DNA of 37,389 nt from Opitutaceae bacterium (GTDB lineage Bacteria; Verrucomicrobiota; Verrucomicrobiia; Opitutales; Opitutaceae). The stretch covers positions 1-37,389 of the forward strand of contig JAGNQV010000008.1 in the NCBI GenBank assembly GCA_017988885.1, in the 5' to 3' direction. Below the pieces are notes generated by a model that worked only from the letters and a program-made list of their open reading frames with translations, searched no databases and was not told the origin of the DNA. Position numbers and translations under genes: made by a program. The number at the start of each line of letters is the position of its first letter. Within the stretch, counting starts at the first letter, position 1. Positions 3,746 to 13,090 of this stretch are shown here, in pieces.

Positions 3746-5224
3746 TTAGCCTGCGCATGTTTTCTCCGCGGCGTAAGCACGGGCGAGCAAAACTACCGGG
3801 TGGACAACCTCCGTGGTGGCATCGCCACTCTGTCGCAGTCCGTTTTGGATCTGCAGATGGCAGCCGGGATTGCCTGTCGCAACAATCGTCGCGCCAGTTG
3901 CCTTAAGGTGACCCACCTTGCGCTCCTGCAACCAGCCCGCTGTCTTCGGTTGCGTGATATTATAAATGCCCGCGCTGCCGCAGCACCAAGTCGCCTCGGC
4001 GCATTCGCGCAGCTCCACCCCCGGCAGGGCTTTCAGGATTTCCCGCGGCTGCGCGCTGATTTTCTGCCCGTGGCAGAGGTGGCAGGCCTCGTGATACGTC
4101 AGCGCCACGGGCGCTGACGTATCACGAACGCCCAACGCTGAACACCCAACGCCCAACGTCGAAGTTCCGAACTCCGCCTGCGGCGCCTTATCCTTGGAAG
4201 TTGGAAGTTCGGCGTTGGATGTTGGACGTTCTGCGACAGCAGCAGGGTGGCGGAAGCCGATTTCGACGAGCCACTGCGAAATATCCTTCACCTTGCGCGA
4301 CCATTCGACCGCACGGCCGGCATAGACCGGATCGTCCGCCAACACATGGTCATAATGCTTCAGGTGCGAGCCGCAGCCGGCGGCGTTGGTGATGATGGCG
4401 TCGAACTCCGCCGGATTGATCGCATCGAGCTGGCGGCGCGCCATCTCCTTCGCGGTCACCTGGTCGCCGTTGTGCGCGTGCAGCGAACCGCAACAGTGCT
4501 GGGCCCGCGGCGTGACCACCTCGCAGCCGTTTTCCACGAGCACATCAACGGTCGCGCGGTTCACATCCGAAAACACGAGATCCTGCACGCACCCCGTCAG
4601 CATGGCCACGCGATGGCGCCGCTCACCGCGCGCCGGTTCGACGGGCGCGATCAACGCGTCGGAAAAATGCCGCTGCACCGTCGGCGCCGAGGGTTCCAGT
4701 TCGCGCAAGCGGCGTGGCAGCAACGCGGTGAGCTTGAGCTTTCGCACCAAGGTTTGAAACCCGCTGGCCTGATGCAACCACAGCAGCCGGCCCGCGGCGC
4801 GCAACAGCCGCGGGTGCACAAACAACCAGCGCAGGGTGAGCGCGCGCACGGTATCTCGCACCGGCGCATCATTGATTCCGCTTTGTTCGACGTGCGCCCG
4901 GGCGGTTTCAAAAAGCTCCGTGTAATTCACGCCTGCCGGACACGCCGTCGTGCAAGCCAGGCAGCCGAGGCAGTAGCTCATCTCGTCGGCAAACGCCCGC
5001 GAAGTCTCCAGCTCACCATCCGCCACCGCCCGCATCAATGCGATGCGTCCACGCGGCGAATTCCGTTCCCTGCCCGTTTCCATGTAGGTCGGGCACGTCG
5101 GCAGGCACATCCCGCAGTGCATGCACTGCTGGAGGACGGAATAATCCAGTGCGGCCAGCAGGCCGCCTGAATTACTCCGTCCTCCAGAACGCTCAACATT
5201 TAACGCTGAACTTTTAACGCTCAA
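3746..5224 (-). CDS. glcF: Glycolate oxidase iron-sulfur subunit GlcF, carrying element-derived segments
   Basis: The 492-residue protein has two [4Fe-4S] motifs (Cys34/37/40/44 in CMHCGMCLPTCP and Cys85/88/91/95 in CLGCLACTTACP) and two CCG domains (CCGSLHAHNGD with GCGSHLKHYDHV; YHEACHLCHGQ with CCGSAGIYNI). It passes electrons from the GlcD flavoprotein to the membrane quinone pool. The only usable start is TTG 5224, which overlaps the four-helix-bundle stop (TTGA) and lies in repeat DNA, so residues 1-26 are encoded by the repeat and an adjacent palindrome. Residues of about 332-373 are a second insertion, absent from typical GlcF as I remember it, just before the second CCG domain. The core cysteines remain intact, so the protein may be functional. 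No glcE is seen in the window. Confidence 0.88.
   Translation of the reverse strand: MSVKSSALNVERSGGRSNSGGLLAALDYSVLQQCMHCGMCLPTCPTYMETGRERNSPRGRIALMRAVADGELETSRAFADEMSYCLGCLACTTACPAGVNYTELFETARAHVEQSGINDAPVRDTVRALTLRWLFVHPRLLRAAGRLLWLHQASGFQTLVRKLKLTALLPRRLRELEPSAPTVQRHFSDALIAPVEPARGERRHRVAMLTGCVQDLVFSDVNRATVDVLVENGCEVVTPRAQHCCGSLHAHNGDQVTAKEMARRQLDAINPAEFDAIITNAAGCGSHLKHYDHVLADDPVYAGRAVEWSRKVKDISQWLVEIGFRHPAAVAERPTSNAELPTSKDKAPQAEFGTSTLGVGCSALGVRDTSAPVALTYHEACHLCHGQKISAQPREILKALPGVELRECAEATWCCGSAGIYNITQPKTAGWLQERKVGHLKATGATIVATGNPGCHLQIQNGLRQSGDATTEVVHPVVLLARAYAAEKTCAG
4090..4230. repeat. Gene-less heptad element plus fold-back of host sequence inside glcF
   Basis: Positions 4127-4175 consist of consecutive 7-nt words (AACGCCC, AACGCTG, AACACCC, AACGCCC, AACGTCG and decayed ones). 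Positions 4194-4230 hold the inverse words (TTGGAAG twice, TTCGGCG, TTGGATG, TTGGACG), giving a miniature terminal-inverted-repeat element of about 104 nt with a short GC-rich centre. Directly abutting its left end is an inverted copy (4110-4126) of glcF positions 4090-4106, a perfect 17-bp hairpin with a 3-nt loop. The whole insertion is translated in the glcF frame. Confidence 0.85.
5129..5187. repeat. 59-nt palindrome: inverted duplicate of the glcF 5' coding region
   Basis: Outer arms 5129-5145 and 5171-5187 match at 16 of 17 positions, inner arms GCGGCC/GGCCGC (5151-5156, 5161-5166) are perfect, and the loop is AGCA. The arm nearer glcF encodes DYSVLQQ, just before the first cysteine motif, so it is host sequence. 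The distal arm is its inverted copy and ends exactly where the heptad array begins at 5188. Confidence 0.85.
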
Positions 5225-5636
5225 GTGCTGGCGCCTCCACGATTGCGGTTCGCCGTGCGAATGCTGCTGGCAAAAATTTTAACCAATTCCTCCGCTTCCG
5301 TAAGCAAGCCGGTTAAGAGTCCCGGCTTGGCCACCAGCTCCGCGCGCTGCACCAATCGCAGCCAGCGGCGGCTCTCGCGCAGTTCCTTGTAGCATACCTT
5401 GAGTTTGTGAACGAAGTCAGCACGCGACTCGGCACCTTCAGCTTCTCCGTGATGACCATAAGGCGAAGTGCCCGAGCGCAGCAATTGGTCGGCAACATGA
5501 TTGGCTGCACGCGACCGTTTCATTGATTCCGTAACTCGGATAATCCGCACGGCGAATTCCAACAAACGTTCCTCCAAATCGAATTTCGCAGCATTCATAA
5601 CTTAAGTGTTAAAAGTTAAGCGTTGAGCGTTAAATG
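5188..5636. mobile_element. Heptad-TIR element carrying a four-helix-bundle gene
   Basis: The left end is an array of 7-nt words from 5188 (AACGCTC, AACATTT, AACGCTG, AACTTTT, AACGCTC, then AAG). The right end at 5602-5636 is the inverse array (TTAAGTG, TTAAAAG, TTAAGCG, TTGAGCG, TTAAATG). Read as complements, the two ends align word by word, so they are terminal inverted repeats. The only gene inside starts within 10 nt of the right array, and its stop overlaps the left array. The element sits between glcD and glcF; the glcD stop (TAA, 5637-5639) abuts it. No transposase is present. The mobility mechanism is unknown. Confidence 0.72.
5221..5598 (-). CDS. Four-helix-bundle protein (23S rRNA intervening-sequence protein family)
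   Basis: The 125-residue, helix-rich protein (FDLEERLLEFAVRIIRVTESM, ANHVADQLLRSGTSPYGHHGEAEGAESRADFVHKLKVCYKELRE..., then a long C-terminal helix) matches the S23/four-helix-bundle family in length and in the signature QLLRSGTSPxxxxxEAxxAxSxxDFxxKLxxxxKELxExxxWL. Family members were first recognised in open frames of intervening sequences inserted in 23S rRNA genes of Leptospira and others; bAvd of retroelements is a distant relative. The molecular role is unknown, and nucleic-acid binding is likely from basic surfaces in relatives. The gene is co-directional with glcD and glcF and exactly fills a heptad-flanked element. No reverse transcriptase is nearby. Confidence 0.85.
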   Translation of the reverse strand: MNAAKFDLEERLLEFAVRIIRVTESMKRSRAANHVADQLLRSGTSPYGHHGEAEGAESRADFVHKLKVCYKELRESRRWLRLVQRAELVAKPGLLTGLLTEAEELVKIFASSIRTANRNRGGAST

Positions 5637-7007
5637 TTATCCCTGATCGAATATTTTGCCGGGATTCAGCAGGTTTTCCGGATCCAGCGTTCGCTTGATC
5701 GCCTTCAGCAACTGGTAGCTCGCGTTACCCAGCTGCTGTTTGAGAAACGCCTTCTTCGCCAAACCCACTCCATGCTCGCCAGTGATGGTGCCGCCAAGCG
5801 ACAGCGCGTAGTCAAAGATCTCCTTCATCGCCGTCTCCACCCGGTGCATCTCCGCGGTGTCCCGTTCATTGGTCAGAAAGGTCGGATGCAGGTTGCCATC
5901 GCCGAAATGGCCGAATGTCGCGATGTCGAGCCGGTGCTTCGCCGCGGTTTGCTCGATGAAGCGGATCATTTTTGCGAGTTCGCTGCGCGGCACCGTGGCA
6001 TCCTCCAAGATTGTGGTCGGCTTGAGTCGCGCGAGCGCCGAAAAAGCACTGCGGCGCGCGGTCGCCAGCTTGGCTGCCTCGGCGGCATCCGCGGCGCGTT
6101 TCACCGAGGTCGCCCCATGACTGCGCGCGAGCGCCTCGATTTTTACCGCTTCATCTTCCGCCGCCGCCGGATGGCCGTCGGTCTCGATCAGCAACACGGC
6201 CTCGGCGTCGAGCGGCAGGTCGACATGCGCGTAATCCTCCACGCAGCGGATGGTCTTGCGGTCGAGAAACTCCAGGGTGCACGGAATGATCTTTGCCGCG
6301 ATGATGGCGGAAACGGTTTCGGCCGCTGCATCCATCTGGGCATAGGTCGCGAGCAGGGTCTGCCGCGCGGCCGGCTTCGGGAGCAGCTTGAGCAACACCT
6401 TCGTCACCACGCCGAGCGTGCCTTCGCTGCCGATGAACAGGTCGCGCAAGTTGTAACCGGCGACATCCTTCACGCACTTGTTGCCCAGCCAGCAGATCGA
6501 ACCGTCGGCGAGCACCACTTCCAGGCCCATGACGTAGTCGCGCGTGACGCCGTATTTCAGCCCGCGCAGTCCGCCGGAGTTTTCGGCGACATTGCCGCCG
6601 ATGGTGCTGATCTTCATCGAGCCGGGATCGGGCGGGTAAAACAAACCGGCCGCGTCGGCGGTCTCAAAAATCTTCTGTGTGATGACTCCGGTCTCCACCA
6701 GCAGCGTAAGATTCTTGGTGTCCAGCTCGAGGATGCGGTCCATCTTCAGCACGCACATCACCAGCGCATCCGCCACCGGCACGCTGCCGCCGCTCAACCC
6801 CGTGCCCGAGCCGCGGGTCACGACCGGGGTGCGATGTTCCTTCGCCAAGCGCAGGACCGTCGCGACTTCCTCGGGGTTGCGGGGAAACACCACGGCCCGC
6901 GGCAATTGTTTCAGCGTCGCCGTGCCGTCGAAACCGTAGGGAATCAGGTCCTCGCGCGCAGTGAGGACGTTTTCGGAACCGAGCAGGCGGGTCAGGGCTT
7001 CGATCAT
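5637..7007 (-). CDS. glcD: Glycolate oxidase FAD subunit GlcD (FAD-linked 2-hydroxyacid dehydrogenase)
   Basis: A 456-residue flavoprotein of usual family length. The N-terminal FAD_binding_4 domain contains the PP loop RGSGTGLSGG (65-74) and GGNVAENSGGLRGLKYGVTRDYV (138-160). The C-terminal FAD-oxidase domain has GHFGDGNLHPTF (366-377) and GEHGVGLAKK (410-419), the metal and substrate histidine motifs. It oxidises glycolate, D-lactate or another D-2-hydroxyacid and hands electrons to the iron-sulfur partner encoded downstream. The sequence cannot separate these substrates. ATG 7007 is the first start. The original glcD-glcF junction is interrupted by the four-helix-bundle element. The 189 nt upstream show no gene. 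Confidence 0.9.
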   Translation of the reverse strand: MIEALTRLLGSENVLTAREDLIPYGFDGTATLKQLPRAVVFPRNPEEVATVLRLAKEHRTPVVTRGSGTGLSGGSVPVADALVMCVLKMDRILELDTKNLTLLVETGVITQKIFETADAAGLFYPPDPGSMKISTIGGNVAENSGGLRGLKYGVTRDYVMGLEVVLADGSICWLGNKCVKDVAGYNLRDLFIGSEGTLGVVTKVLLKLLPKPAARQTLLATYAQMDAAAETVSAIIAAKIIPCTLEFLDRKTIRCVEDYAHVDLPLDAEAVLLIETDGHPAAAEDEAVKIEALARSHGATSVKRAADAAEAAKLATARRSAFSALARLKPTTILEDATVPRSELAKMIRFIEQTAAKHRLDIATFGHFGDGNLHPTFLTNERDTAEMHRVETAMKEIFDYALSLGGTITGEHGVGLAKKAFLKQQLGNASYQLLKAIKRTLDPENLLNPGKIFDQG

Positions 7008-12356: not shown

Positions 12357-13090
12357 GCCTGCTCGAGGCCACCGGCGGCGAATGGGCCGAACTCGGCGAT
12401 GCCATCCGCGCCTTTCGCGCCCTCCTGCCGCTGCGGCCGCTCGAAGCCTTCGGATTTTCCGCCACGGCGGAAAATCCGCTCGAGGAAGCCAACGCGCGCC
12501 TGCACCGCATCGGTGGCGGCGTCGAGGCCTGGGCCTTTGCCGCGGACGACGGCTCGGTTTATAAATTCTACCTGCCGCGGGAGGAGAAGCGCATCGGCAG
12601 CGCCTTCGGTTTTCGTCCCGGCGAGGAAACCCTGCTGCTGGCCGAGGCGGGCTTGGGCGATTACCGTGCGCTCCTCGAAAAACTGCTGTTGATCCACGCC
12701 CTCGGCGGCATGGCCACCGAAGTCATCGCCGTCACGCCGGAAGGCATCCTCGTCGCGAAACAGGCTCTCGGCGAACCGCTGCCGCAAGGCGATGACATGT
12801 CCCAACGCCTGCCCGATGGCCTCATCGAAATCCCCTCGCGCTTCCTGCGCGCCAACCGCGACCACCCCCGGCTGCATTTTCTCAATGAGCACGCGTGGCT
12901 CGTCGCCGACCTGCATGCGCGCAACTTTGTGCGTTGCACGGACGGACAACTGCGCGTGATCGACCTCGTCGCCGCGGCTTGGCCGGTGGATGCAACCGCA
13001 GCGAATCCGCTCATCGCCGACTGGCTCGCACGCGTGCGTCACGATCCTGCAGCCTCCGCCCTGCCCTCGGCCCGCGACGAAGAGTTGTAG
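12155..13090 (+). CDS. Kinase-fold protein (polyvalent-protein kinase type)
   Basis: From about residue 70 the product reads as a compact protein-kinase-like domain: a Gly-containing start (RIGGGVEAWAFAADDGSVYKFYLPR, with the Lys of YKF in the beta-3 position), a hinge region, the catalytic loop VADLHARNFVR (HxxN) and a metal motif RVIDLVAAAWP. This resembles the small kinases found as domains of phage and plasmid polyvalent proteins. The first 65 residues have poor codon bias and overlap a better-looking frame. However, no other ATG, GTG or TTG exists in frame upstream of the domain, so ATG 12155 is the only standard start. The end falls into a repeat that supplies the TAG stop. Substrate unknown. 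Confidence 0.65.
   Translation: MQDLFTDQPTLLRGRLLPGPVERRALQDDHERRLGALARLGAAAEKCDLRAHSDPDRDLVLLEEDEVSLLEATGGEWAELGDAIRAFRALLPLRPLEAFGFSATAENPLEEANARLHRIGGGVEAWAFAADDGSVYKFYLPREEKRIGSAFGFRPGEETLLLAEAGLGDYRALLEKLLLIHALGGMATEVIAVTPEGILVAKQALGEPLPQGDDMSQRLPDGLIEIPSRFLRANRDHPRLHFLNEHAWLVADLHARNFVRCTDGQLRVIDLVAAAWPVDATAANPLIADWLARVRHDPAASALPSARDEEL

Follow-up and report, generated by a model that had tools for sequence, protein, structure and literature searches.

Heptad-flanked elements with PF05635 four-helix-bundle genes in Opitutaceae and beyond can abut inverted copies of the adjoining host sequence

Genes of the PF05635 family are very common, and their role has been unclear since their discovery in rRNA intervening sequences. 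The 23S rRNA intervening sequences (IVS) of Coxiella and Leptospira, which carry an S23/IVP ORF, are small selfish elements with inverted-repeat ends that are found at hairpins. They are situated in helices 9/25/45 of the rRNA, from which RNase III excises them (PMC4990558). That study calls the function and origin of the Coxiella IVS unclear, and gives a mobile element with a mobility ORF as a hypothesis. According to PMC10053308, PF05635 is homologous to the DGR protein Avd (4DWL), and the structure of Xcc0516 (2gsc) is cited there as five four-helix bundles. Bacterial heptanucleotide repeats, such as TAACTGA of Beggiatoaceae (PMC4679880) and the cyanobacterial STRR, are degenerate 7-mers in short, mostly intergenic arrays. 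PMC4679880 proposes regulation for the TAACTGA repeats and cites polymerase slippage, and a search of it found no mention of S23, intervening sequence or four helix. MITEs and REPINs are short, gene-less, inverted-repeat elements present in many copies, and group IIC introns insert beside (terminator) hairpins. To our knowledge, no transposon leaves a mirror-image copy of neighbouring host DNA.

We analyzed a 37,389-nt stretch of DNA (the window) from an Opitutaceae bacterium. The window's own genome (G000) is 82% complete, G002 is a same-genus relative, and most genomes used are MAGs; the sequence examined comprises stretches around matches plus samples of one genome. Two insertions are located in and between the minus-strand genes glcF (3746–5224), a glycolate oxidase gene, and glcD (5637–7007). 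Element 1 (4127–4230) is gene-less and MITE-like, consisting of a heptad array (AACGCCC AACGCTG AACACCC AACGCCC AACGTCG..), a centre and an inverted array (..GGCGTTGGATGTTGGACGTT), and is held by glcF in frame. Element 2 has a plus-strand terminal array of five heptads (5188–5222; AACGCTC AACATTT AACGCTG AACTTTT AACGCTC) and, on the minus strand, an inverted terminal array of five heptads (5604–5638). These arrays flank a minus-strand gene (5221–5598), whose 125-amino acid four-helix-bundle (4HB) product matches PF05635 (23S_rRNA_IVP) and TIGR02436 with E values of 1e-11 and 5e-21. The TTG start codon of glcF lies inside element 2, and the TAA stop codon of glcD is created at the junction with this element. 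A 4HB-bearing element is found at the glcD-glcF junction in three genomes (G000, G002 and L152, an Opitutus sp. GAS368 MAG), with the glcD stop codon at the element's junction or close by. Elements of this family measure about 100–450 bp, with a 4HB ORF or none. The 4HB element and the gene-less one have the same kind of ends; element 1 appears to be a gene-less derivative or relative of the kind of element 2, presumably moved in trans.

As with the IVS, these are small elements with inverted-repeat ends at hairpins whose mobility is suspected but unexplained, and a PF05635/S23 protein is encoded, by element 2 only. Unlike the IVS, the window elements sit in or between protein genes, in the glcF/glcD context and not in a 23S rRNA helix, and they have heptad-array ends and host-derived inverted copies. 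They differ from DGRs in having no reverse transcriptase, template or variable repeat. The inverted heptad arrays are terminal inverted repeats as in MITEs, but compared with MITEs and REPINs we see no target duplication, identify no transposase partner and find degenerate tandem repeats at the ends; the 4HB element codes for no transposase, nor does the element encode any enzyme to cut, join or polymerize. None of the known families that we tested shares all its defining features with these elements, and their mechanism is something we infer.

A genome scan with the element 2 protein returned loci in Opitutaceae, two archaeal MAGs, Bacteroidota, Syntrophaceae and Planctomycetota, and most of these 4HB genes are, as judged by eye, flanked by inverted short-repeat arrays with a lineage-specific unit. 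By Pfam search, PF05635 occurs in 78 of 115 Verrucomicrobiota genomes, with up to 18 copies, and in none of 14 control genomes. In most of the 30 best PF05635 loci, alignment of the upstream and downstream flanks as inverted repeats exceeds the 95% level obtained with mismatched pairs, and the repeat period is 7 in about 25 loci and 8 in about 5; 20 further loci are much alike, with a few weak ones (50 Verrucomicrobiota loci in all; the UP and DN flank labels in these scans denote the genome strand, not the ORF, for minus-strand loci). The repeats differ among 4HB copies within G254, and L271, a further 4HB gene from the genome of the window, has GAGGCGT-like heptads rather than AACGCYC, as is expected if each protein recognizes its own repeat. 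The family profile matches 2gsc and 2rld, with five chains in each entry, and five repeats together with five subunits may be more than coincidence. The element family is widespread and apparently undescribed: in the open-licence literature we found no published account of PF05635/4HB genes with inverted heptads, mobile elements, tandem repeats or MITEs. The original prediction had overlooked both the PF05635 gene in element 2 and the nature of the heptads as terminal arrays of a widespread element family. We also considered 4HB as a PADLOC defence family, and the 4HB protein has no PADLOC match.

Of 252 Opitutaceae genomes, 93 contain the heptad pattern AACRYYNAACRYYNAACRYY; in the partial genome of the window it occurs 34 times at ∼13 places, and not once when read backwards. 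The strict pattern AACGCYCNNNAACGCYC, which has the wrong spacing, gave no matches. Exactly five heptads are found in 73 of 118 arrays from seven Opitutaceae genomes. Their variation consists mainly of transitions at positions 4–6, with position 7 free and AAC kept, an outcome that the search pattern favours. L084 and L091 of G002 carry another palindromic repeat (GTAGCTACGAGCGTGAGCGAGTGG ... CCACTCGCTCACGCTCGTAGCTAC), placed within heptad elements or next to them. G164 has 17 solo five-heptad arrays (L204–L220) on one 4.73-Mb contig, nearly all without an inverted partner and none with a hairpin, and no PF05635 match. These arrays lie on the minus strand at 0.17–1.75 Mb, on the plus strand at 3.08–4.02 Mb and again on the minus strand at 4.48–4.66 Mb, tracking a very strong GC skew (G-rich strand).

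Both window elements abut a hairpin built from glcF sequence. At hairpin 1 (4090–4126), within glcF, the plus strand reads CGTGATACGTCAGCGCC-ACG-GGCGCTGACGTATCACG and continues immediately with AACGCCCAACGCTG... The left arm (4090–4106) is host coding sequence, antisense of ..ALTYHE.., and the right arm (4110–4126) is its inverted copy; the 3-nt loop ACG (4107–4109) forms with the adjoining GCGCC/GGCGC, from A-P-V-A-L codons, a probable native fold-back seed. Hairpin 2 (5129–5187, 59 nt), close to the glcF start, reads CTGGAGGACGGAATAATCCAGTGCGGCC-AGCA-GGCCGCCTGAATTACTCCGTCCTCCAG on the plus strand and runs immediately into AACGCTCAACATTT... Its left arm (5129–5156, 28 nt) is 5' coding sequence of glcF, antisense of LAALDYSVLQ, followed by the 4-nt loop AGCA (5157–5160) and by a right arm (5161–5187, 27 nt) that is an inverted copy up to the first heptad, one base shorter than the host arm and differing from it by two substitutions. 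The original prediction of a perfect 17-bp hairpin with a 3-nt loop and of a 59-nt palindrome with a 4-nt loop placed both correctly. Hairpin 1 is paired at 17 of 17 positions (18 when the T at 4089 is counted as partner of the array's first A), whereas the palindrome of hairpin 2 is not perfect because it contains a one-base bulge and two mismatches. The distal arms stop exactly at the first heptads, at 4127 and 5188, as had been proposed. The longest perfect stem with a loop of 3–8 nt is 17–18 bp in the real window versus 7–12 bp in 60 dinucleotide shuffles. The sole other perfect stem of at least 10 bp in the window is found at 12451–12478 (12 bp, loop 4) and has no adjoining heptads.

Comparison of filled and empty sites bears on the origin of the second arm. 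The element 1 site in glcF is filled in four genomes from three genera (G000, G002, G129, and G220) and empty in 25. The insertion is in frame in all four, and the stem base is the same host nucleotide in each. Complementarity to the 13-nt host arm amounts to 13, 12, 11 and 13 nt in the filled genomes, compared with 7–9 nt, by chance, in the 25 empty alleles, which contain no partial arms. The copy arm is closest to its own host in G000, G002 and G220, with a tie in G129. The in-frame length of the window sequence (FRHPAAVA+SAPVALTYHE), compared with the empty FRKPAANPNAPTTLTYHE of G035, fits the element plus about 12 nt of copy; reconstructed in this way, the insertion would have involved no duplication and no loss, and we see no target-site duplication at the glcF junctions. 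At a second locus, the L107 gene of G002 ends ..AIAR|EAR + GATCGC.. before the array, whereas in same-genus empties it ends ..ELAR(TV/AG)R* and has no arm. Because only filled sites have it, at glcF and at L107, the inverted arm arrives with the element. The hairpins are host and not element sequence, as predicted, and the empty glcF alleles do not already contain both arms.

These sites argue against a choice of pre-existing hairpins as targets, in the manner of group IIC introns at terminator hairpins. Such a preference would fit the terminator-like position of many G002 hairpins, which begin directly after a stop codon, but the absence of the second arm from the 25 empty glcF alleles and the same-genus L107 empties contradicts it at two loci. 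Hairpins also lie inside coding sequence and, in L036/L091, immediately ahead of an ATG, and array-less G002 genes are generally without the stop-plus-hairpin layout (by eye; a crude count, 15/25 versus 23/53, is not decisive). By their size and ORF content, the elements differ from group IIC introns in having no reverse transcriptase and, presumably, no intron RNA. We consider target choice improbable. Assembly or amplification artefacts, namely fold-back chimeras, might be suspected as many genomes are MAGs, but the same architecture is seen at one glcF nucleotide in four assemblies with an open frame in each, and strong hairpins are enriched at array edges and not elsewhere in the flanks. 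We give this explanation hardly any credence.

In a GlcF tree the filled sites are polyphyletic and at least three state changes are forced at well-supported branches; therefore the same site has been hit repeatedly or the element has been precisely lost several times, and horizontal spread of the glcF element may be an alternative. The glcF linker of another genome (L124, G226) contains different heptads (AAAATCG AAAATCT AAAATCC AAAATC), which marks this linker as a hot spot for unrelated repeats.

We next turn to array edges across genomes, at which the best stem ending exactly at each position was scored, with a loop of at least 3 required. Among the 118 arrays of seven Opitutaceae genomes, stems scoring at least 8 are located exactly at the edge in 23, compared with an average of about 2 at distant offsets, and stems scoring at least 6 in 37, compared with about 4 in the more distant flank; this excess does not extend beyond one base into the array. 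The 30 PF05635 loci, whose repeats are unrelated, behave similarly: at least 6 points are reached exactly at 6 of 57 usable edges (control mean 0.4 over nine offsets) and at least 8 points at 3 of 57 (0/513 controls). Allowing a tolerance of 6 bases weakens the excess (11 versus 5–13 for at least 6 points, 5 versus 0–3 for at least 8), and the signal is therefore carried by exact abutment. The scan of heptad boundaries thus reveals a clear excess of hairpins. A strong hairpin is present at only ∼1/3 of edges, with hardly any in G022 and G023. Edge hairpins in PF05635 loci include stems of 14–15 bp (L248), 11 bp (L243) and 8 bp (L241). That of L248 takes in the last codons of the neighbour (MVKASA) and its stop codon and borders unrelated heptads, and in archaeal L165 the sequence GAGC-TATA-GCTC encloses the stop codon of the neighbouring gene and abuts AATGCAA. 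The left arm corresponds to the last codons and stop of the adjoining gene in L035, L085, L087, L094, L101, L248, and L165.

The hairpin is always found outside the array, preceding AAC on the strand that reads AAC.., which is the position where a host 3' end meets the element 5' end. By this symmetry both junctions can have a hairpin. Most paired elements have one strong hairpin, but L085, L087, L095, and L105, which lie between convergent gene ends, have hairpins at both edges. A location on the same side of the element therefore holds for the two window hairpins read on the plus strand and fails as a rule, and the proposed one-sidedness of the inverted duplication is not universal. Relative to the reading direction of the 4HB gene both hairpin sides occur, so orientation is not fixed.

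The frequent location at gene 3' ends, and on both sides at convergent genes, could be taken to indicate that hairpin and array are under selection as a native signal for transcription termination or 3' processing, rather than being left by a mobile element. A T tract is missing, however, and hairpins occur midway through glcF, in frame, and ahead of start codons; the presence and absence at orthologous sites and the 4HB gene within paired arrays likewise speak against such a signal, which we regard as quite improbable.

Of 44 hairpin edges in G000 and G002, 40 have a G immediately before the array and 35 a C as the outermost host base, which may reflect a one-base microhomology or a fixed element end. 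Hairpin-assisted single-stranded DNA transposition by a Y1 enzyme (IS200/IS605, RAYT-type) acting in trans, with 4HB as an accessory, would call for a fixed short target sequence 5' of the left end; we see no conserved target tetranucleotide at the stem base, and what is common there is a C, with a G in front of the array. The Y1 transposase family PF01797 is present in 15 of 15 element-bearing genomes but is common anyway (5 of 14 controls), and hairpin edges have no replication-strand bias in G000 and G002. We know of no Y1 element that leaves an inverted flank copy, and rate this route as rather unlikely. A reverse transcriptase as universal trans factor was rejected, RVT_1 being missing from 10 of 15 element-bearing genomes, including G002, the single-contig G178 and the 82% complete G000. 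G216 has about 31 RVT_1 matches, many with near-identical scores, resembling a burst of one retroelement. Hairpin-opening palindromes (V(D)J-like P nucleotides) are disfavoured because most stems enclose unpaired loops of 3–5 nt, in a scan that itself required a loop of at least 3.

From the observed anatomy of the elements, the filled and empty sites, the exact abutment and the absence of the arm from empty sites, we infer an order of events, the use of a polymerase and a role for 4HB. On balance we lean slightly toward the view that both insertions are mobile elements belonging to a single family, which inserted by a fold-back copy. A host strand with a free 3' end would snap back on a short native inverted repeat (3–6 bp, 3–5 nt loop) and would then be extended by a polymerase along its own strand. 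Template switching or ligation would link the extended end to the element's 5' end, in most cases behind a G copied from a host C. The insertion would then comprise the element and, at one junction or both, 7–20 nt of host sequence in inverted form; we see no target duplication. The 4HB pentamer would probably hold the five heptads of each end, a model suggested by the five subunits, the five repeats and the different repeat per 4HB copy within one genome. Fold-back, extension and jump would explain the 3–5-nt loop and the variable arm length, and also why target duplications are lacking and why hairpins can occur on either side.

The original prediction had likewise envisaged a fold-back of the target that is copied before joining. 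The first part gains from the codons at two sites, which lead one to expect native seeds of 5–6 bp with a 3-nt loop (GCGCC-CGT-GGCGC in glcF, GCGCGC-GAG-GCGCGC in L107). Copying before joining fares less well, as later upkeep or perfecting is also allowed by the covariation of palindromes at orthologous sites. Two features do not follow from fold-back: in all four filled glcF sites the copy stops at one and the same host base, a common stem base which random fold-backs would not predict, and about eight hairpins of G002 and G000 begin precisely behind a stop codon.

The main rival holds that the palindrome began short and was kept or perfected after insertion, by selection on RNA or DNA structure or by arm-to-arm correction (quasipalindrome template switching), and is not a scar of insertion. 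Because the arms covary at orthologous sites, palindromes may indeed be kept or perfected later: G000 and G002 show compensatory differences at glcF, and the 12-bp stems of L036 and L091, which lie at the same place upstream of the same start codon, stay paired despite ∼5 differences per arm. In addition, G002 has not retained hairpin 2 of G000. On the other hand, the G129 copy and hairpin 2 of the window differ from the host, including at synonymous third positions, as a drifting copy would, which seems to argue for an ageing scar, and the empty sites show no partial arms. We consider post-insertion upkeep a serious though unlikely account on its own; a fold-back scar at insertion and later perfecting may both be at work.

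If PF05635 genes belong to heptad-flanked mobile elements, this would provide a context for them and an origin for scattered heptanucleotide repeats, and the movement of intervening sequences would become testable; the inverted host copy would be a readable scar of the insertion chemistry. Tentatively, and with more doubt than conviction, we propose that these are mobile elements of a new class, occurring in both bacteria and archaea and encoding no nuclease, transposase or reverse transcriptase, in which a pentameric 4HB protein would hold five ∼7-nt repeats per end and the element would be captured at self-copied, folded host 3' ends, with bacterial heptanucleotide repeats and the 23S rRNA IVS as possible products of the same process.

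Two further sets of edges were seen in this analysis. In L103 of G002 (∼1455–1490), two successive fold-backs are apparently stacked before the array, CGGATTGGC-AGATCTA-GCCAATCCG and then CCGCGC-TCAG-GCGCGG, sharing CCG. In L241 and L244, from two genera (G303 and G328), 4HB elements terminate at one and the same position in a related gene (..NQGET.AD..), and each has its own 8-bp edge hairpin.
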